Assembly (NCBI GenBank): GCA_030295235.1
Contig: AP026144.1
Span: 248,001 to 312,000 of the forward strand
Origin: Fistulifera solaris
Lineage: Eukaryota; Bacillariophyta; Bacillariophyceae; Naviculales; Stauroneidaceae
Direction: 5' to 3'
DNA: 64,000 nt
Under the pieces are notes generated by a model that did no database searches, was not told the DNA's origin, and saw only the letters and a list, made by a program, of their open reading frames with translations. Made by a program: the position numbers and the translations under genes. This document shows, piece after piece, positions 8,820 through 48,438 of the stretch; position 1 is the stretch's first letter; every line of letters begins with the position of its first letter.

Positions 8820-10470
8820 ATGAACGGTCCTCTTCTCGAACTTATTCCCAAAGAGCAAATGACGCCCGGCAACAGGAGCTCCTTCCGGCTATCTACGGAG
8901 GTAGGCTTCCCATGTACAAGTTGTTGCGGGAGCCTTCTCACCTGGATGATTTTGACTGGGAGAAGAACCAACACGCGATTGTGTGGTTCGAAAATGAGAC
9001 GATGTTTTGCTTTTATAAGGCAGCTTCCTTTTTCGAGGAGCACAATTTTTGCTTTGTGATCTCACATAGTGATGATCTCAAAAAGTACTTCCCTCGAAAA
9101 GCAATTCATGGTGAATCGGAAACCAAGATTCTAGAAACGATCACCTCCCTTTGGTCTCTCCCGAAATTGAAAGGAAGTAAGACGCTTTTAACCACTTCAG
9201 AGCATTCGATAGACGATGTGGATTACGGCTTTGACTTTGCTTCGCTACAACCGGGCAGATTGCCCGCGCATACTTGACGCCGAATCCCTCAGCGACGGTT
9301 TTTCTTCGACAGAGGAATCCGGAGCTCTGCACAAGCTGTCGTGCTTCGTGCTAGCGTCAGCGTCCGGATACTACGGCCTTGCATTTGACGGACGCATTTG
9401 CCTTTGAAGACCACGGAACAGCCTTCGTGACGTGAGCTAGAAAAACGAAAGTCGTCCTTTGGTTCTCTTAGCTTCGAGGTCGACGAAGCCACAATTCCTT
9501 TCAGTCGCGCTAAACGTTGAACGTCTGTTTGAACTCGACGTACTTGACAAGCTTGAACTTGATGCTCTCGGCAGACAATTTCTCCCGCTTCCATTCTCCC
9601 GCAAAAGCAAAAGCTGCACAACAAGATCACTTCAGACACTATGAAGCCTGAAGACTTGAAACACTTGAAATTGTACCGAAGGATCTTCAAATCAAAGTCT
9701 ACGTAGACGTTTCGCTTAAAAACAATGGGAGGCGCTCCGGTTGCGTTTTCTGAATCGAAGCGGCTGCACTGGGCAACTTAGAGAAGCTGTCTTTTCTGAT
9801 ACTCCACAGGCGTATGAATTGACGGCCGTTTCAAGTCAGGGAGAAAGTTAAGCGCGTTGCTAATGCACTGTTTCGCACCATCAAGGCCAATAATGCAAAT
9901 TGCAATATCTGAATGTAGTAGCGACCATTTATGACAACGATGCCAATTGCCTCATTTGGGACTCCCATTTGCAGACGTTTTTCAAAGCTGTGGCAGGGCA
10001 TCAGGGGCTTCGAACGCTTGTCGTGGGAAACTATCCCCCGAAGGATGATCCAGAAAACTATTTTTTGATCGAACAACTGCTAGCCAGCAACCGGAACAAT
10101 TTAGTCGTTGACTGTAAAGGCAGCAACATTTCGAACGGAACTACTGTCGACAAGCTGTACACATTGAACTCCTTGTACCAGGGATCGACTAAGCTTGTAA
10201 AGGGTCGGCCTCATTAAGCCCGTCGCTAGTGGCTACTGCAATTTTGGAACGCTGTGATCGGATAACTTCCAATATATTTCCTTGCTATTGTCGCAGCATG
10301 ATGATATTCTTTGCGATTTGATCCAGGGCGTGAATCTAGAGGATATTATTTATTTGCAAACCATGTCGGAGGAGTCTGTGGTGTCTGCACATTCGACGGA
10401 AAGCGAAACCAAAAAGTTCGCGCACATCAAAATAGAACGAATAGATTTACTAGAAGTGTCAAATTCATAA
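8820..10470 (+). pseudogene. Degraded LRR-like family gene, copy B
   Basis: The plus strand repeats copy A block by block: MNGPLLELIPKEQMTPGN at 8820, LPMYKLLREPSHLDDF at 8910, PKDLQIKVYV near 9680, HQGLRTLVVGNY near 10000, DKLYTLNSLYQGSTKLV near 10150 and LLSQHDDILCDLIQGV at 10282. These pair with IPEERLTLNQ, LPIYKLLRKPASL, PKDLSLKIYV, HPGLRTLAVEK, DRLYLLNKCY and LLSQHTDVLCESIQ of copy A. The region 9280-9900 has stops in every frame and is more eroded than copy A. The copies flank the giant ATPase gene in inverted orientation. A non-functional relic is the likeliest reading; function unknown. Confidence 0.65.
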
Positions 10471-35742: not shown

Positions 35743-37149
35743 TCAAAGCTCAGAACTGTCCTTGTCTGGAAGTGTGATCCATAGTCCCAGAGCCGTCCAG
35801 GCGGCAATCGAAACAATGCTTACCACATAAGACGGAAGATAAACACCCGCCACCGTTTGTGCGCTGGAAAGACCTTGAGATTTCAACAACACTACAACAA
35901 TTAGTGCCCCAGGCAATGCGGCATTGACAACTACAACCAAGAGTGCCATTGGTGGAACACTGATGGGTAGAAACGCCAAGGGGAGGATCACCAATGCCGG
36001 GGTTACGAAAAGCCTCGCAGCTATATACCAGAACAAGTACCGGACATGTTCTCCTCTATGTTGCTTTGATTCATCAGGTCCAGGCGCAAATAGATAAGTG
36101 AACCACCGTTTCCAAAATGGATGACTATTATCATTGTCGCCTGAACATCGGGGTTCCCCGGAAACGTCAGGGTCGCGCTGCCTTTCGGGCGCTTCCGCTA
36201 TCCACGCTAGAGGGACCAGACTTGCGGCCACGACAATAGTGCTCACACTGGACGAAGCAATTCCCATTGTGTGGATAGCATCGCCGATGAATCGTAGTGG
36301 AGCGCCGGGTTCAAACAGCGCATCACGTAGAGGACCGATGCATCCGGTAACAATGCCTGCCGCCATTGTCAAGAATCCCGGCGATGAAAGCGTTTGCTTG
36401 ATAGCATTTGTTACTGTTTGAAGAAATAATGTGGAAGACGTTTTTGCTGAGCGTGTATTGCTTGAACGCTCGGCGTTGCCTTGGAGGACCTCTGTACCAA
36501 GGCTCTCGTCCATCCGTGATAAAGAAATTTCTGCCGTTTGGTCTTCACTTTGCTGCTTGGCTTCTGCCGCTCGCATCAACTCAGGGAGTCCAAAAGTAAA
36601 GAAACAAAAACTCCATCCAAAGAAATAAACAAAAATCATGCTGTTCGCATCAGCTGTACATGCTTCGATAGGACCCATGCCAGTACTGTCCGAGGACGTC
36701 CGGTTCATGGTAAAGTTCTCGTAAACAACTGCGTGTTCACAAAGACTCGGAAATATCAAAATCGGTAAAGCTACTGTATTTGGATAGGTTGCCGCAATCC
36801 GCAGTGCCATAAAGTCTTCCTCTAAACGCGGCAGCATTATGTATCCCAGTATTGTCGCGACGGCATAACTGAGTCCTACCGTGGCAAAGGCGGCTACAAC
36901 AAGAAACCAATAGTCTCCAATAGAATCTGGACTAATGCTTTGAGCTGTTGTACTATAAATCAGCGACAACGTCAAGGTGTGAAAGGAGAATCGTGCTATT
37001 GAGGCGACGGAAGAGCTCGGCATTAAGGGTTGTGTGCGTGGGTAGAGAACTGAAGCGAAGCCGACAGCTCCAATCACGAAAACTTTGGACACACTCTGAG
37101 CGGCAGCCGCTATCACGGAAGTGATTTGTGAAGTGGAAGCAGATGCCAT
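35743..37149 (-). CDS. PIN/PILS-like membrane transport protein (auxin efflux carrier family)
   Basis: 468 residues, one intact exon. The layout is two hydrophobic bundles of about five spans around a polar central loop (~residues 195-260). The first bundle has the family landmark NTVALPILIFPSL; the second ends NAALPGALIVVVLLKSQG followed by two more spans. This matches the Mem_trans (PF03547) family, which includes plant PIN and PILS auxin carriers and bacterial AEC transporters. The substrate in an alga cannot be told from sequence. The N terminus has no cleavable signal, so either the ER or the plasma membrane is possible. Confidence 0.88.
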   Translation of the reverse strand: MASASTSQITSVIAAAAQSVSKVFVIGAVGFASVLYPRTQPLMPSSSVASIARFSFHTLTLSLIYSTTAQSISPDSIGDYWFLVVAAFATVGLSYAVATILGYIMLPRLEEDFMALRIAATYPNTVALPILIFPSLCEHAVVYENFTMNRTSSDSTGMGPIEACTADANSMIFVYFFGWSFCFFTFGLPELMRAAEAKQQSEDQTAEISLSRMDESLGTEVLQGNAERSSNTRSAKTSSTLFLQTVTNAIKQTLSSPGFLTMAAGIVTGCIGPLRDALFEPGAPLRFIGDAIHTMGIASSSVSTIVVAASLVPLAWIAEAPERQRDPDVSGEPRCSGDNDNSHPFWKRWFTYLFAPGPDESKQHRGEHVRYLFWYIAARLFVTPALVILPLAFLPISVPPMALLVVVVNAALPGALIVVVLLKSQGLSSAQTVAGVYLPSYVVSIVSIAAWTALGLWITLPDKDSSEL

Positions 37150-37916
37150 TCTTATGCGAGAACTGACAATCGTGCGGTCAACTGCTTGTTTTTGCTCGTA
37201 GAAGAGGACAAGTAATGTGGTGAATTTCGTAATAGTTCGACACGGAAGCCAAGAACCCGTGCTAATTGCTTTCGAAGATGAAGTTCCTTGTTTTTTACTT
37301 AATGCTTATCAAATTATATGTCGTCAAACAGCAATCGTTTTCCTTTTCTTTCAATATTCCAGACTCCAGACCCGTTGTCCTACTTTTCGCTTTGTCGATG
37401 TGTTCGGCGTTCGGCGTCGTTCGGCGTCATGCAAAAGGGTCCCGAGTCCCGAGTTCCGTGTTTTTCTCATCCGGGTCTTTTTCTCGTCAAGCTGAAGTGC
37501 CTAACTTCTAAGTAAGATTACCGGAGTGAAAATTATTCTCTAAGTGACAACCATGAACGACGATAAATATAAGAAATAAAGTAATAGATCATGATCATAG
37601 TGTCAACGTCACCCAGAATTATTTTTGTAAGCAAAATACAAGTAAATAGGGAATAGAATAAACGTCATTGAATACTTGTATAAAAATATTAATACTGCGC
37701 TAAACGTCGAACGGTGCAGATTACGCGCCAGCCGAAGAGTTCGAAGACAGCTTCACCGTTTGAACCTCATCTTGGCTTACCGACTTTCTTTCATCTGTTT
37801 CTTTTGTCTTTGCAAACCAATTATACAGCTGTATTTCAAAGCATCTTTGTTGGACTCATTGTCACTTGCCTTGTTGAAGAACGGCTTTTAAATACATCTA
37901 CCCGTGACATTTTATC
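37150..37916. other. Intergenic between carrier and formin
   Basis: Divergent 5' flank of the PIN-like gene and the formin gene. A short CG-rich iteration (GTTCGGCGTTCGGCGTCGTTCGG) lies near 37400-37430. Frames of up to 92 codons overlap in three phases here, which is typical of non-coding AT-rich DNA. No gene is supported. Confidence 0.4.
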
Positions 37917-40900
37917 ATGATGCGACGACGACAGAGCCAGCTTGAGCCTCCTGCGGAAGGAGAGGCTGCTTATGCATACGGTAACACCAGTGCGCGGTCT
38001 TCCAATCAAACTATGAGAAACGATCCTCCAGATCATCGAGCGATTGAACCTTCTGTGAGCGAAGGGCAAAATTCTGCGGTTAGTGGCGGTCGAGATCCAT
38101 CGGTTATAAATAAAGGAGCGCGGCCGACTAAAAGTAAAACCTCGTCCTGGTCGGCAGCTGCCATGCGTTCCGCCATGCGCTTGTCTCAGGAAAATTATCA
38201 GCAGACACGTGATCCTTCTGTCGCTAATGATCAAGCCATCTCAATCACCAAAACGAAAAGCCGTGATCCTCCGCCAGATACCAGAGAGTCGTCAAAGAAA
38301 GATACTTTCGCCAACCGTACCGTTCATGATAGCTTGGGCTTGCCGCCATCGGGGAGCTATTCGTCGACTGTGGGGAGCTCGTCTAGCGGAAGTCCCAATT
38401 CGCAGCAGAGAGCCTTTCTGAGGAACTTTTTGAAAAGAAAGGTGAAAAAGCGAATGTGCAGACGAAGACGATGGCCACTGCCAAACAAAAATTGCTGAGA
38501 AATGTCTTGCAAAGAGCCAAGGAGGAGTGATAAGATCCAATCACTCTGCAGAAGAGGCCCAGATATATCGTTCAAATTCCGGTTCGCCCACGAATGGTAG
38601 TTTGCGAGAAAAGTGGAAGCGCAAGGCAGCGGCAAACGCATCTCGAACGGGGCAGCGACCAAATAATGACCCATCGAAAGAGGACATTGCTCAAAGTACA
38701 CAGCAGCAATTAGCAAAAACGAACTTGAGGATTGATCCTGAAATTTCTGCGGGGGAAAAGGCAAGAAATAGGGAGAACTCGGGAGGATTGCGAAAACATG
38801 TGAAAGTAGGTTCGACGGGGATGAGCATTCGACAACGATACGAAGAGACACTTCGTGAGAAGACATTTCAGAAGTCGGTCACGGACGAGTCAAAGGCTGT
38901 ACAGACTGAAGTCGACGATGTGCATAGAGATGAATATGGTGATTTCCTCGACATTCTTCATGAAGAAGTCATGGGGCAACACGCTCAGGTACGTCAACTT
39001 CCTTTGCAGCTAGCAAACGCTCTTTACCTGCCATTCTAACGAAAATCGCTCTAAGTTATGGGAAAATTTTCGGGCGACCATGACGAACACGCCTGCACTT
39101 ACTGTTGAGCTCAAATCACCGGCAAAAGCATTTAAATTTGACTCTGAGACAAAAGAGCTTCTTATGCAAATGAATCTGTACCTGAAAAATGTTTCCACTG
39201 TCGAGCATCTTGGTGTGACGCAACTCGTCAAGGATAAGAAGTATCGGAAAGAACTCTCTCGTCTGAGCCTGTTGGCTGGCGGTAGTGCCGACAACAGTCG
39301 TAGATCTTCGGTTCTCCCTCCTATTTTGGCTGAACGGGTCCAAAGACGAAAAAGCGTTGGGCATGAAATGATGGTTAGCAGATCGGTGAACATGGAGAAC
39401 AATGATAGCAGGGGTGAAGTTGTTTCTAGACGAGACAATATCAAGGTGAACGACGTGCATCAACGGCACGTCATAGCGCGTCAAAACTTTGCAACAACAA
39501 TTATTATGTCAATGAAGAAGCAGAAGAAAAATCGCACACCAAAGCTTCCGAGGTTTCAACTATTCAGACAGCCTTGAGTGACGATAGTTCCGTGAGTCTC
39601 AATCGATATGACGTTCCGTCTCATATCGAGCAAGAGTATGACCCTGTAACGGCACAGCGAAGCAATGATGATAATGAAAATCAGTCGCAACTGGAAAAGC
39701 GGAAGTTCGATACAATTCTTTCCACGCGATCGCTTTCATCCGCAAAAGAGCATGACTTCTCACAACGTACGCCTCCTGAGACGAGGAAAAGCCGTTCTTC
39801 TTTCCATTTAAATCCATTACACAGACAAGGTCACCAAAAATGCGTTCCCACTGGCAACCAAAACGAAACGTTAAAGCAGTTTCTCGCAACACCGAAATCA
39901 GATTCTGGCTTTGAAGTAACATTGGGTCAATTCGAATCAAAGATGCGTCCGTTGTCCCCAGGCTCAGATCGCTCTACGTCCACGTCAGGGTCCGTCGTTC
40001 CTTGGAAAGACGTTCGTCTAAAGTCAGTGCCATCTTGTTCTCCTGAAAATCAAGGCGACGTCTCGAAGTTGTCCCCTGCATTCGCGCAGCTGCAGCTCCG
40101 ACGTGTAGATTCATCTTCTGTATCGCCTTCGTCCGCAGCTTTGGAATCCCAGCTAAGGTACAGTTTTAATTCTCAAAGTTTTGCCACAAACGACCCCACG
40201 AGTATCATCAGTCAAAGTACCACTCAGCAGAATCACCCTGGAGCTGGCGATCCTACTGAACGCACGCCTCCAATTCAGAACTCAAAACACCTACGTCAGA
40301 ACACCATCGATTCAGCATCGAACTACTCCGACGAAAGTTCTCGAATCACCAGTGCAGATGCATGCATTTACTTGAAACACCGGGAGGACACTGTAGAAAA
40401 GGTTCTTGTATCCAAGGAACGTATAAGAAAGACAGTTCAGACGTCGGAAGATTCACCTCCACAACTAGTGTGGGTTCTCGATCGTTCCATGATTAAGTCG
40501 CTAAGTCTTGACATGGCAGACAACCAGGCCAACTTATTCCTCGATGAAGGAGGGAAAAGGGAAACACTTGCATTTGTCAACGCTGAGGATTGTCTCCGGT
40601 TTGCGAATAGCTTCTATCAGTTCTCAGCGCCATCCACACAGCGAAGCACAGATAGTGAAATACCAAACAGCGTTAACCAGCAAGATGAAGAAGACGATGA
40701 GGTATCTCTGCTTGACACACTAAACGAGGAAGAACAGAAGGTCTTGGAAATGTATAGGAGGTTAAGAAAAACTAAGGCAGCCGAAGATGCCATGCAAGAA
40801 AGTATCTCACAAGAGACTGTTCGAGCGGATGACCAATTTTCTCTCACAAGCCAAGAAGAAGAGCTAGCGGAAAAGTATCGGGGTATGCTGCGGATGTCCT

Positions 40901-43900
40901 TCCCATTGGCTGTTGTCAAAAACAAAATGAGTAGGGACGGAGCTAGTCCGAAGCTTTTGCTGCGATCGAATCAGTTGCAAATGACTTTCCTCCGGCCTTC
41001 GTATCAGCTCAAAGGATGCCCGGGAGTCCCGTCTCTACCTTCTCAAGTTCATGCGGACTTTCGACTACAGAACAAGAGACTGCCGAGGCTTATCGAAAAC
41101 TTTTAGACAAGCTAGGAAATCCTGAGTCCATTCGGAAGAAAATGGACGATGCGAAAGTGGACCAAAAATTGTGGGCCAAGTTTTGGGTGAAGATAATTCT
41201 AAATCCGAATTGTCGTTGACACCCGCTGAGGAAGCACTGGTCCAAAGCTATCTGAGAATGTTAAAGATGTCCGTGCCCGAAGAAGCAGTTCGACATAAGA
41301 TGATCAAGGATAGGGCATCGGAAGCTGTTTCACGAGCTGTGTTTAATGTGACGAAGCAAGCTATCAGCACAAATGAACTGAACGCAGAAGAAAAAGCTAT
41401 TGCGGAAAAGTTTAAGAAGATGCTTTCGATGGGAGTTCCGAAGGACGGAGTTCATCATAAAATGATACGCGAACAGATATCCCAAAAAGTTATGGATGCG
41501 GTGCTGGAAGTGACAAACGACCGCAAACCGAATGAACGAAACACTGCTCTTCCTTCTCTGCCATTTAGTCGGGATACGACTTTGAGCGAAGAAGAGACGT
41601 CTCTTGTATCTCAGTATAAGAAGATGCTCAAGCTTCAGATTCCGAGGGAGCAAGTTCTAGCTAGGATGCAAAAAGAGGGTGTTACTGAAAAAGTGATCAT
41701 TGCTGTCATGGGGAAAAGATTTGGGTCATCTGAATCTACGAAAACTTTTGATTCAAAATCATCGGAAGGAACGAGCAGTAATCTCGTGTCATTGCATTGG
41801 ACACCATTATCTGGGAAGGATCTTGATGACAGTATATGGAGTAGAACAAGTAAGAAGCGTGGGGTATCGACCAAAGTTATCGGACCAGAGAAAACAGAAT
41901 TTAACGAGCTGATGGAGCTATTTCAAAAGAAGGCGAATACGGGAAAAATTCGTTCGACGAAGAAGACTGATACAGGTACTGGGTCTGAGAAAGCGAAACT
42001 TCTTGATATCACCCGATCAAATAACGTGGCTATCAGCTTGAAAGCATTTAAAGCCTTCCCTTTTGAAGAGCTCGCAGAGATCATTTCGTTCTTAGATCCC
42101 TTGCGGAAGATACGTGGTGAAAAATGTCAGTTCATTCGTGATATTTTGCCGACCAGTTCCGAGATCAGAGTTATAAAAGAGTACGACGGAAGCGATGATC
42201 GTCTCGAACCCGCTGAGTTGTGGTTTCGCCATCTGGTCAATATTCCTCGCCTGGAAGTCAAGGCTCACATTTTACGTACCATGGAAATGTTTAACGCCGA
42301 TGCCACACTTTTGATGGAGTCGTTTGTCATTTTGGACGAAGTGTGCCACCAGGTCATGAAGAGCGAAAAACTACAAGAGTTACTCGAAATGGTTTTGAAC
42401 ATTGGAAACATAATGAACGAAGGCACTAGAACAGGCGGGGCATCGGGTTTTAAATTTGACTCTTTGTTGAAACTGACACAAACCAAGAGTTCAGACGGGA
42501 AAACAACAGTACTGGACTTCCTGGTTAACGTCTTTGTATCAAAAACCAAAGAGAAGTACTTTATCTTACCACCGACTTTCCTCGTTGCCGTATTGCAAGC
42601 AAAATGATGATCTCTGACATGTTGAAAGAAGTAAAAAGTCTTGGCGATTCGCTCGAGCAGTGCAAGGACGAGCTCGAAGCACTCATTAAGGAAGAAGAAG
42701 GAGATGATGAAACTGAAAATGACGTCGTTGATTTGACCGCAGTCAATTCTTCCGATCTAGACGACCCCCGGGGTGCTTTACTATCAGCGATCAAGGCGAA
42801 AGGAAGCAATGTACCGAAGAAGCCCAAGCGATTTGCTCAGCGAGATCTTTTCCTTGCGGTTGTTGAAGACAAAAAACCAAAAGGCAAGGTCGTCCTAGAT
42901 GAAGTTACCATGAATCGGGAGACTGGCATAAACAGATTACGTCGTTTCATCGCAGAGGAGACTGAAACTTACGCTATTCTAATCCAAAAACGAGATCAAG
43001 CCCTCAACGCGTGTCGTGACACTTCCAAATACTGCGGCGAAGGTGGCGGTCATGGTTCAATAGCTTCTTTGTTGGGTGTGCTTGCTCAATTTGCAGACAA
43101 CCTCGAAGAGGCTGTTAAAAAATACGACCAACGAGTACAGAGAGAAATGCGTTCCAAAAAGCAAAAAAGCGACCAATCTTGTGCATCGAGTGTTCAAACA
43201 GTCTCAACTGGGCAAACGGAAGCCAAGAACGCAAAACGATCTTTGATACTGATGGTGAACGAAATGTTGAAAGATGCCACTGAAAGAACAAAGGAAGACT
43301 TCACGAAAGGAAGAGTCTACGGAAATCCCAGCAAATCCCTCCAAGCCATTTATGAGCTTGAAAGTGTTTTAGTTTCTTCGGACAATATAATTACACAAGA
43401 AGACCCAGGTTCTATGAAGAAAGAAAAAGGCGTTGTAACGAATCCAGTACGTGAGGTTCTTGTGAGGTCGACAGCTACCAATGGAACTTCTCCCAAGAGA
43501 ACGACGGAACTATCGAGGATGGAAGTGGCACAGGTCAACACAACGGCTTCAGCAATCGCCGATTTCTGGAAAAAGAAGGAAGTGGTCTCGATGCAAAAGT
43601 CTCTGGACTCTGTGCAGCAAAATGAGAGGAATCAAGACGTAACGGAGACAGACAATGTTTCAAAGAACAGAGCTTCGCTCGTTTCATCAGCGCGGCAAAC
43701 ACAACCTAGCGAAGACACGAACGTAGACGAACGGGGATTATTAACACCGAAGTTACCAAAGCAACAGTCATCCGTTGTCGATACTGCACGAATGTTTAGC
43801 GGTGTCAAAGAGCAGCCGGCAAGAGAGGAAAACGATGAGACGATTCAAAAGTCAATGCACGCAGATGACACCCCTCCGCACGAAGAGTCTTTCGTAGAGA

Positions 43901-44470
43901 AGAAAAAACTATGGCGTTAATGATTCTCCAGATGACCTTTCGTGCGAGCATACAAAGACAAAGAAGACAATTTCCGTTTTACAAGAAACAGAAATGAGCA
44001 AGGAGTCAACCGTCAGCATTGATGTAACCAAATGTCTTCCTTCGTCGATTGCAGAACAGGAGGATGTTCAAGAGCTAGTTGGAATATCTGTATTAACGGA
44101 ACAGAAAGAAAACGTTGTCTTGCATCAAGCAAGAGGAAATGAGAAGACACCGGAGACCAAACCACCACTCAGCAACCACCAAAGTTCAATTGAAGTTCTC
44201 AAAACAGTGCAAAGGCCCAACATTCCGATGGGCTCTCCGACAATAGTGTCCGAGAAGGGGGAATCGGCCATGATCCGTCTTGCGCGTTTGAAACGAGAGG
44301 AAAAAACAAAGACAAGAAAGTCCCTGTCTGAATCACCTCATATCACAAAGTCACCATTACCACCCTCAATTAATGAAGGTTCCGCACAACAGGAGAGTGC
44401 AATGGTACAGTTGGCTCGGCAAATGAGAAAAGACAGGCGATTGAGCGCCAACAAAGAGGGGAACAGTTGA
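37917..44470 (+). CDS. Formin (FH2) with six tandem CCDC53-like motifs
   Basis: About 2,160 residues; one intron, 38989-39055. Residues 1-900 are Ser/Arg-rich and disordered. Between ~40720 and ~41715 a motif of the form E-x-Y-x-K-M-L-x-M-x-V-P-x-x-x-V-x-x-K-M occurs six times (clearest: YLRMLKMSVPEEAVRHKM, FKKMLSMGVPKDGVHHKM, YKKMLKLQIPREQVLARM). It resembles WASH-complex subunit CCDC53. The FH2 domain follows (~41890-43180): NNVAISLKAF, RLEVKAHILRTMEMF, MVLNIGNIMNEGTRTGGASGFKFDSLLKL. The tail after FH2 is long and Ser/Lys-rich. No poly-proline FH1 is visible before FH2, which is unusual. About eight one-base frame changes (near 38440, 38512, 39487, 40952, 41168, 42547, 43908), mostly short A runs. 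It nucleates or elongates actin filaments. Confidence 0.85.
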
Positions 44471-44723
44471 ATTGAATAATGAAGTAGTAAGATTTTGATC
44501 GAGTAATCTTCTTTGCATTTATCGAATGAAGCTAGTACTATTCTTCATAGCTTCGGATGGCAAAACGGACCTAGCTGCCGAAGTGTCAGTCACGGACGTC
44601 ACAAAACATTGACATTTTGATTTTTGCAGCAAACGATGAATCGAGAAACAAAAATCATTGACTCAATTGTAATATCTTGTCTAATTCGTTGATAGTCTTT
44701 GTAAATGAATGCTAAACCTGCTA

Positions 44724-45538
44724 ATGGATTTACTGGACGAGTACGATGACAGCGATAGCAGCGAAACAGAAATCCGTCAAGAAAAACGACTCCTTTCTCA
44801 TAATGCATCGCCGATCAATGCGAATGAACCCTGCAAGAAACAAAAAGAGGCCAAGTAAGCTTTGTATTGCCTTGTGACCTGTCAAAGCAACAATTATTTG
44901 AGCGTCAGCAACCGCATGTGCCAGGAAATTGGGCCGGTCATGTGTTTATCAACATCCCCCAGAATATCGACCTCGAGCGTGAGCAGCAACGTGCAGCTAA
45001 CGCGTGGAAAGACCGCCTCGAAAATGAGGGATGGACGGGCCCTATGCTACTTCACAAAGAAGATGATAGAAAATTGCTGAAAGGAATTCACGTGTCGCTC
45101 TCGCGACCATTCTATTTGCAACGCGGATCGATCGATTCGTTTCTGCAGTCGCTACGAGAACGCTTTAAATATACTGAAAAAGGATGGTTTCGACTCGACT
45201 ATTCAGAAAAGGGAACAAAACTATTTACAAACGACGATAGTACTCGCACGTTCTTAGTATGGCGAATTGAGGATGTGGAGAATACCCTCACCATGCTCGT
45301 CAAAGATGTGGATACGGTGTTAGAGCGTTACGGAGCCGCTCCCTACTATCACCCGCCTCAATTTCATGTGAGTGTGGCATCGATTCCTGGTACTTGTTCT
45401 GCAATAAAGGTACTCGATAGAAAGTCAGACGAGCCAGGAGTGGCGATACCGGTGTCGGACATTCATTGCACGTTCGGAACCACAGAGGAGTTTATCATTC
45501 CGCTCGGTACAGCTGGTTTGTCGTTAGGGAAAGGATGA
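44724..45538 (+). CDS. USB1: USB1, U6 snRNA 3'-5' phosphodiesterase
   Basis: About 270 residues. It starts MDLLDEYDDSDSSE at 44724; the acidic start resembles other USB1 proteins. One base is missing near 44846. The 2H-phosphoesterase core has both catalytic tripeptides: GIHVSLSRPF and PPQFHVSVASIPG. The family phrases PGNWAGHVFI and SEKGTKLFTNDDSTRTFLVWRI are also present. It trims and caps the 3' end of U6 snRNA with a terminal phosphate in the nucleus. Its size and the order of motifs match the human protein. Confidence 0.9.
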
Positions 45539-46739: not shown

Positions 46740-46937
46740 CCTTATACTTGTGATAAACAGTCATTAATCAAGCGTTGACTTTCATAACAATTTACTAGTT
46801 CGATTCCCCGTCCTCTGACTTGGTTCGAAAAACGACGCTTTCTGTTGCAAACGACGCTATCATGCGTCCTGGTGTTGGGTGTTGCTAAATTTTCATTGTT
46901 GTTTTTATATACTCCGTACATATCACTGTAAAGCACC

Positions 46938-48438
46938 ATGCCGGTACTGGACCGAGAACGCCGTTCGACGGCGGGAAAACGCATGACCGAACTGGGCGGT
47001 CAAGAGGCCGAGGATGATGCCGCATTTTGGGGACACGAAACGTGGAATGAGGATTCCGACAACGAGTCGTTTCATTCGTCCGATGAAGACTCGGACATCA
47101 AGAAAGATGTCTTTGATTCAGATTTTGATGAAAGTGAAAGTGATCGGGAAGAAGAGGATGCCGTTGCAGGTGATGAAGAAGATAAAGAAATTGCTCGTGT
47201 TGATAGGAAACGAAAAGAATCGAAGTCGACTTATTCGGATGTTGTTGCGGGAAAGTTGGCGAGAGGAAAGCGAATGAAAGGTATCAAGCGGATTATCGGT
47301 GATGGTTTGAACGCTGGGATTGTTCTCAATGCTCCTGGTGTCACTCCATCTGTTGCTGCACCGGTTCCTTTGATCACTTCTTCAGCAGCAGTGCCGACGG
47401 GCAGTTTATCACCGACGGTAGCATCTTTATCAAAGCCGGCACGCAAAGTCACACTAGCGTCGACACGTCCTCGAAGGGCCGACCAACTCCGGACGTCCAG
47501 TAAACGAACGACAACAGCGCGGGTTGACACACCTGCGGCCGCGGGTTATGCTTCATCTACGGGACAACCTCCATTGACAAAATCATCATCATCATCATCA
47601 TCCGGTCCGCAAAACAACCACAAGAAAAAGAAGCGTCACCGTCATACGCAAGAGGAGCTTCTTCTCGAAGCAGCACACGAGACAGAAGGTGAAAGCATTC
47701 GATGGTTACTTGCACGCAAACGATACCAAGAAGAACAAAAAGACAACGAAGGACGAATGGAAGGGGAGAGGGAGAGGGCCCACGGGGAAACTCATTATGC
47801 AATACACTTCGCGGAGGGGTTATCTGAATACCATTACCTTCCCCGAAATGGACCACGTGCCGGAAATATTGACTCGTCGAGACTCTCAGACTACAAAGTA
47901 TCCGAAACCAACCTATTGCGTTATCACTGGGCTCAAAGCTCGCTACAAAGACCCACGCACGGGATTAGGTTATTACGATTTGGCTGCTTTCAAGGAATTG
48001 CGGAGACGAAGTGACGCCGGAGAACCACTCGATCAACGAAAACTAAAAGCGCGGGACTCTACCAATAGTACCAAAGCAAACTCCAGTGCAGCGAACGATT
48101 GCTCAAAACCACCCAAATTAGATACATTAGCGAATGGTTCCGCGACATCGACCAAAACAGAGTCGCACGAGAATAACGGCTCGTCGGAAGCTGGTCCGAA
48201 GACTGAAAATTCGGACGCTACTCATGCTGTTGACCCAAATACATCACAACCCAATGCCGAACCAGCTCTACCCACGAATTTGTCTCGCAAGCCTGCACCC
48301 CGCCGCAGGAAGCCATCCGCTAAAGTTCGAGCCGTTGAAGCCAACAGAATTTTGACAAACGGTTTACAATATCCTTTCCCTGCGACGGTTTCACCATCCA
48401 GACCGTCGCAGGTTCCTCAAGAGGACCTTGCAGAGTAA
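46938..48438 (+). CDS. VPS72: YL1 / VPS72, H2A.Z-handling subunit of SWR1-type complexes
   Basis: About 500 residues. It starts MPVLDRERRSTAGKRMTEL, followed by EDDAAFWGHETWNED and an acidic region, the YL1 N-terminal H2A.Z-binding part. The middle is basic and Ser-rich with TQEELLLEAAHETE. The YL1_C domain is clear: YPKPTYCVITGLKARYKDPR and GLGYYDLAAFKEL. One base is missing near 47780 in GAGAGGGCCC, where frame one gives way to the frame with the C-terminal domain. It works in the nucleus in depositing histone variant H2A.Z. Confidence 0.92.

Follow-up and report, generated by a model that had tools for sequence, protein, structure and literature searches.

Formins normally bind profilin-actin through a poly-proline FH1 region and pass it to the FH2 domain, and the number of poly-proline tracks in FH1 sets the local monomer supply or residence. 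What, then, stands in the FH1 place of a formin that has no such tracks? The question is raised by a gene in a 64,000-nucleotide stretch of the Fistulifera solaris genome (contig AP026144.1, positions 248,001 to 312,000; C22:248001-312000 in our contig numbering), hereafter the window. The gene carries an FH2 domain directly preceded by a series of short motifs that resemble the C-terminal tail of the WASH-complex subunit WASHC3 (CCDC53), and we tentatively propose that this array does the work of FH1.

F. solaris is described as an allodiploid raphid diatom with homoeologous chromosomes and a GC content near 45% (PMC5935921). The genome we searched comprises 51.7 Mb in 61 contigs, with a GC content of approximately 46%, and the main aligned pieces of contig pairs C21/C22, C25/C26, C3/C4 and C23/C24 are approximately 85-90% identical. 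The homoeolog of the window formin locus (L031) is 86.9% identical to it.

The motif array and the FH1 place

The initial annotation called this gene a formin with six tandem CCDC53-like motifs, spaced 40-50 residues apart, where FH1 would be expected. The FH2 domain is indeed there: frame 41126-42604 matches PF02181 at 2.1e-55 (profile positions 2-259), and the following frame, 42529-43917, continues the match over positions 253-313 (E 0.0025, 17.5 bits, alone under the cut-off). In the homoeolog, FH2 lies in one frame (profile 4-314, 4.1e-63). The domain contains LHWxPL, GNxxN and KLxxxKxxDxKTT stretches, which we take to be significant FH2 features. The domain and the motif copies before it are as follows:

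40723..40797, + strand: motif copy 1, vestigial, without the P at the turn; 2.5 bits
40849..40947, + strand: motif copy 2, WASHC3-tail-like; 37.2 bits
41064..41171, + strand: motif copy 3, weak, in the third reading frame; 10.3 bits (homoeolog 12.4 bits)
41219..41350, + strand: motif copy 4, WASHC3-tail-like; 40.0 bits
41381..41512, + strand: motif copy 5, WASHC3-tail-like, three-helix model; 44.1 bits
41585..41716, + strand: motif copy 6, WASHC3-tail-like; 29.8 bits
41756..42717, + strand: FH2 domain (PF02181), split over two frames by a break near 42541

The series directly before FH2 is thus real, and the notion of a multivalent array holds in that several copies stand in a row. They are not six equal copies, however: four are clear, one is weak and one is vestigial, and their start-to-start spacing (42, 72, 52, 54 and 68 residues) is wider and less regular than first stated.

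The Pfam family CCDC53 (PF10152) matches frame 41126-42604 at 6.4e-15 in three stretches and frame 39430-41103 at 5.4e-5 (24.1 bits, just below the 24.6 cut-off). Taken singly, copies 2, 4, 5 and 6 each match it, with E-values of 2.5e-4 (21.9 bits, positions 111-143), 5.1e-5 (24.2 bits, 109-139), 3e-5 (25.0 bits, 113-147) and 7.7e-4 (20.4 bits, 116-145), respectively, and one of the four (copy 5) passes the curated cut-off by itself.

We compared the copies with several controls. An independent repeat profile, built only from the repeats of other genes, was run on 877 window frames, and the best score among 20 shuffles of these frames was 7.8 bits. The best of 5000 synthetic coiled coils likewise reached 7.8 bits, compared with 36.0-50.4 bits for copies 2, 4, 5 and 6, and when each of copies 2-6 was shuffled within its own composition, 0/2000 shuffles reached the real score. 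We therefore reject generic coiled coil or chance for copies 2-6. An unrelated minus-strand frame (9834-10079) scores 9.7 bits with the independent profile, making copy 3 marginal by score alone, so its call rests also on its place and on its homoeolog. Copy 1 is not confidently distinguishable from chance: its 2.5 bits were reached by 46/2000 shuffles and the independent profile does not find it. It has zero amino-acid changes in 28 codons relative to the homoeolog.

No poly-proline FH1 was seen before FH2. Window frames longer than 150 amino acids, from 38446 to FH2, hold no run of three or more prolines and at most 4 prolines in 20 residues, and the two shorter frames of the gene model have no such run by eye, so following the corrected frames did not reveal an FH1. 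The sole PPP of the gene lies in the far N-terminal frame 37908-38495.

Likeness to the WASHC3 tail

Single window repeats align to PF10152 positions 109-147, the C-terminal tail of the profile, and among the genome matches listed, none starts before position 63, i.e., none covers the N-terminal coiled-coil part. In human WASHC3, residues 30-167 cover profile positions 1-147 and the tail alone maps to 117-147, with the shared tail motif reading KMxxxGVPxxAxxxKMxxxGxDPxLL. CCDC53 is reported to join the endosomal WASH complex through its N-terminal coiled coil (PMC8047104). Because the repeats match only the profile tail, the likeness is to the C-terminal tail of WASHC3 and not to the part that builds the complex. 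The diatom repeats further differ from WASHC3 in lacking that coiled coil, in occurring as many tandem copies and in being fused to FH2, and the WASH partners searched for were not found in this genome. A scan with NCBIfam gave nothing useful, and two scans of viral contigs confirmed no relatives.

Predicted fold

An AlphaFold2 (AF2) model of copy 5, made with an alignment of three other window repeats, has a pLDDT of 82, a pTM of 0.58 and helices at residues 8-23, 27-36 and 41-52. The repeat unit is thus predicted, with fair confidence, to form three short helices rather than one continuous helix. A three-repeat stretch modelled without an alignment reached a pLDDT of 63, and that model was not used. 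We considered a UBA/CUE-like three-helix fold and found it unsupported: Foldseek gave 12 matches in the PDB, all with E >5. With no significant match, the fold offers no functional hint. The repeat profile had one chance match (E 2.5) among PDB sequences.

Selection on the repeats

We estimated the ratio of nonsynonymous to synonymous substitution rates (dN/dS) between window and homoeolog by the NG86 method, with motif and linker boundaries set by ourselves. The six motifs give 0.038 (95% range 0.013-0.074), from 7 nonsynonymous and 42 synonymous changes in 243 codons. The FH2 core gives 0.087 (0.041-0.148), the linkers 0.200 (0.085-0.388), the N-terminal part 0.249 and the C-tail 0.401. In bootstrap samples, the motifs equalled or exceeded the FH2 core in a fraction of 0.035 and the linkers in 0.001. 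The segment values therefore indicate a gene under selection, and the motifs are its most constrained part, under purifying selection. The P and M positions are moreover retained in all four gene families, whose motifs otherwise share 30-49% identity.

Integrity of the gene

The gene is interrupted by several changes of frame. Its model was obtained by tracing frames against the homoeolog, and its start and end are putative:

37917..44470, + strand: formin gene, inferred; first ATG at 37917, one short intron and several assembly frame breaks
38989..39055, + strand: likely 67-base intron; a frame change with GT..AG ends
40341..40640, + strand: conserved region preceding the array; PH-like on inspection by eye only, without a Pfam match
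44261..44440, + strand: two ESAM(I/V)xLAR stretches, C-terminal; possible DAD-like tail, by eye only

At the position corresponding to the intron, the homoeolog likewise has a GT donor and an AG. Six one-base breaks (near 38433, 38511, 39443, 40954, 41162 and 42541) occur only in the window, where the homoeolog is open, and four (near 41200, 41391, 41670 and 43570 in window coordinates) occur only in the homoeolog, where the window is open. Nearly all one-base breaks in either copy sit at short homopolymers. Since the homoeolog is open at those six places and broken elsewhere, the window breaks are read as assembly indels, and we read the window formin as a working gene with assembly errors. 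We reject a pseudogene on the strength of the complementary breaks together with the low dN/dS of the motifs and FH2.

Unlike the others, one break near 43900 (window 43898-43920; L031 7255-7277) is common to both homoeologs. It may be an intron, a common homopolymer error or a true early stop.

The stretch at 40341-40640 has a dN/dS of 0.149, compared with 0.257 for the stretch preceding it. The ESAM(I/V)xLAR stretches are visible in the translation of 43898-44467 and in the homoeolog, and Pfam gives no match for them. Nor did Pfam recognise Drf_GBD/FH3 or DAD in the 7 window frames scanned, or a PTEN/C2-like N-terminus in the window formin frames.

Other formins and array genes

Is the arrangement peculiar to this gene? 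It is not: each of the three formin pairs that our searches found carries it. PF10152 gives 46 matches at 9 places, a lower bound, and 8/9 of these places form four homoeologous pairs. FH2 gives 10 matches at 6 places, i.e., the three pairs C25/C26, C21/C22 and C3/C4, and the motif stands directly before FH2 at 6/6 of them. Copies before FH2 number 2 in C25/C26, 5 detected plus 1 vestigial in C21/C22, 9 in C4 and 13 in C3, counts that assembly collapse may have affected. The C26 formin combines its 2 repeats with a nearly complete FH2 (profile 5-371 of 372) in a single open frame of 768 amino acids, and the 13-copy formin matches PF10152 at up to 6.9e-129. Across all formin pairs, the only stretch of at least three consecutive prolines upstream of FH2, in frames longer than 150 amino acids, is the PPP that the C21/C22 pair has in its far N-terminal frame.

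The C3 FH2 match spans a TAA and the C4 match lies in three pieces, so there must be introns or frame breaks there too. The C3/C4 formin has a PTEN/C2-like N-terminus, with a weak PTEN_C2 match (E 0.08-0.2) and YCxxGxxR instead of HCxxGxxR. Its arrays (L034 in C4, L035 in C3) consist of near-identical tandem units, 177 bases x9 and 183 bases x13, i.e., 59 and 61 residues per unit. Motif identity is 99.5% within the C4 array and 98.8% within the C3 array, compared with 86.8% between the homoeologs, and the two arrays have therefore been homogenised separately. A PF10152 match at C4:204343 was considered as a true WASHC3 and rejected, since it belongs to a copy of the C3/C4 formin that has decayed and acquired many stops; two motif remnants lie there, at approximately 204343 in locus L040 (C4:200500-208500).

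The only other array pair found is C23/C24 (L036, C23:781000-790500; L037, C24:756000-765900), with 7 detected copies each (one C23 copy is weak, at 10.8 bits) and 6 and 5 Pfam stretches, respectively. In the frames scanned, which covered the C24 frame and not the C23 tail, Pfam found no domain above cut-off except CCDC53, and FH2 was not recognised. A hidden FH2 can be discounted, as hhalign gave it a probability of 0.1 of 100. The C-termini carry 6 and 7 RG(G/D)LLxxI units, by eye similar to the WH2 helix, so the arrays occur in proteins with the look of actin-assembly factors. The C23/C24 proteins also carry repeated GE(I/V)YIRADGKKVRRVKK units.

Actin partners

The partners that a formin or a WASH complex would need were sought by Pfam searches of the genome. 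Profilin had no match, in one search that was positive in no control genome, so absence is not thereby shown; cofilin, a family of like length used as a control, was found at 2e-36 in both homoeologs and at 7e-7 in a third place. Strumpellin, SWIP-N, WASH WAHD, ARPC2 and ARPC3 likewise had no match, in searches positive in no control genome, and FAM21 was not searched for. An ARPC4 candidate at C7:703640 (18.7 bits, E 0.03; cut-off 22.2) was rejected as by eye not ARPC4.

A survey reports Arp2/3 absent from Bacillariophyta and Apicomplexa (PMC3298513). An atypical, divergent Arp2/3 has later been reported in Apicomplexa (PMC13340494), so absence by homology is not final, the statement of the survey having been revised for Apicomplexa. 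Profilin is also reported to be lacking in many diatoms. The earlier suggestion that the formin borrowed an Arp2/3-pathway motif thus finds little to stand on: the match is to the tail only, the WASH and Arp2/3 subunits searched for were not convincingly found, and the survey reports Arp2/3 absent.

Possible roles of the array

The role that we favour, tentatively and at somewhat under an even chance, is that the array stands in for the profilin-binding FH1, collecting actin monomers or a carrier of them for FH2. FH2 would behave as it does in other formins, capping barbed ends and extending them, with the array beside it gathering monomers either directly or via some carrier. The copy number (2, approximately 6 or 9-13) would set the local monomer supply or residence. 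This role is favoured by the motif standing directly before FH2 at all six FH2 places found, by the strong constraint on the motifs, by the WH2-resembling tails of the C23/C24 pair and by the three-helix prediction. With a conserved multi-copy unit in the FH1 place and no profilin found, such a feeder is the simplest reading; that the array replaces FH1, that it recruits monomers or a carrier and that this is linked to profilin loss are each things we infer. Several observations weigh against it. Proline is not scarce throughout: the richest stretches upstream of the array in the C26, C3 and C4 formins hold 6 prolines in 20 residues, and a stretch following FH2 in C25/C26 holds 7. The three formins probably share ancestry, so their common arrangement does not represent three independent events. 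A Pfam WH2 search finds nothing at the C23/C24 locus, and neither does the scan of the C24 frame; Foldseek returned no solved structure hinting at actin binding; the dN/dS confidence ranges of the motifs and the FH2 core overlap; and the apparent absence of profilin depends on a single Pfam search positive in no control genome. Lastly, FH1 is scored as present in stramenopile formins (PMC2386819 Table 1; PMC5628938), so replacement may not be general.

Nearly as likely, and a serious possibility, is that the units bind a partner other than actin (e.g., a membrane adaptor, a myosin cargo, or a silica-vesicle or raphe protein), so that the array would place or cluster the formin while FH2 does its work unaided by a monomer feeder. 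An avidity device of this kind would fit the varying copy number and the homogenised arrays of 9 and 13 units, and since CCDC53 belongs to an endosomal complex (PMC8047104), its tail could be a docking piece. Against docking, the array keeps to the FH1 place in all three pairs found while the N-terminal regions differ, and the other array carrier is the WH2-resembling C23/C24 protein. We consider it improbable that the repeat is a mere helical spacer, lengthening the distance between the N-terminal domains and FH2 with no specific partner: repeats do expand and contract, and copy 1 has decayed from the consensus, but the motif dN/dS lies below that of the FH2 core and linkers, and the P and M positions are kept. 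Still less probable is that the motif serves to bring the formin into a WASH-type complex or to couple it to Arp2/3. The specific PF10152 similarity of the 13-copy formin and the ability of divergent Arp2/3 to escape homology searches, as in Apicomplexa (PMC13340494), speak for such a link; the tail-only match, the missing WASH and Arp2/3 subunits, the failed ARPC4 candidate and the survey (PMC3298513) speak against it. We give almost no credence to an array, or a missing FH1, produced by wrong frames, assembly or a pseudogene. The six window-only breaks and the shared one invite the thought, but at those six the homoeolog reads through, and its own four breaks fall where the window is open; dN/dS is low in motifs and FH2, and the C26 formin has repeats and FH2 in one open frame.

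A monomer-feeding array would bear on how diatoms, reported to lack Arp2/3 and in many species profilin, assemble the actin bundles used in gliding, division and silica patterning. The conserved module, present at the FH1 position of each formin that we found in this genome, is a candidate for the missing feeder, and one that is easily purified. A feeder role would likewise point to an initial function for WASHC3's conserved tail, to which the literature consulted assigns none. A bolder extension, which we consider rather unlikely, is that the WASHC3 tail is an unrecognised three-helix domain binding actin monomers or their carrier, which was amplified in tandem in diatoms and took over the role of FH1, giving profilin-independent formins. 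If so, the same activity would be expected of the single tail in the WASHC3 of other eukaryotes.

Relation to known formins

The window formin shares its FH2 stretches with classical FH1-FH2 formins such as mDia1 and Bni1, and differs in having no profilin-binding poly-proline FH1. It resembles the tandem WH2 nucleators Spire and Cobl in placing short helical units in series next to, or in place of, a nucleating domain; their unit is WH2, whereas here it is a three-helix WASHC3-tail-like module. Dictyostelium ForC, which PMC2386819 mentions, likewise has FH2 without FH1 and is not known to have an array in that place.

Nearest by lineage are the stramenopile formins and PTEN-formins (PMC2386819, PMC5628938), which have FH2 and, in some cases, a PTEN/C2-like N-terminus. 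Stramenopile PTEN-formins lose the His and keep the Arg of the PTEN motif (PMC2386819), with which the YCxxGxxR of the C3/C4 formin agrees; no PTEN domain was recognised in the window formin. FH1 is described in this group, whereas here WASHC3-tail arrays stand instead of a poly-proline FH1. CCDC53 is not mentioned in the main texts of PMC2386819 or PMC5628938, and our literature search returned no paper linking CCDC53 with diatoms and, among the matches listed, no title joining WASHC3/CCDC53 with formins. We therefore call the WASHC3-tail array in the FH1 place a new arrangement within a known group of formins. Automatic domain databases may already list CCDC53-FH2 architectures.

Neighbouring genes

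Three neighbours were characterised by eye. Upstream of the formin, on the - strand at window 35743-37305, is a membrane protein resembling the auxin-efflux-carrier family (PIN/PILS-like). Downstream, on the + strand, 44720-45538 holds a USB1-like frame (a U6 snRNA processing enzyme; HVSLSR, HVSVAS), and 46932-48438 holds two overlapping frames resembling YL1/VPS72 of the SWR1 complex.

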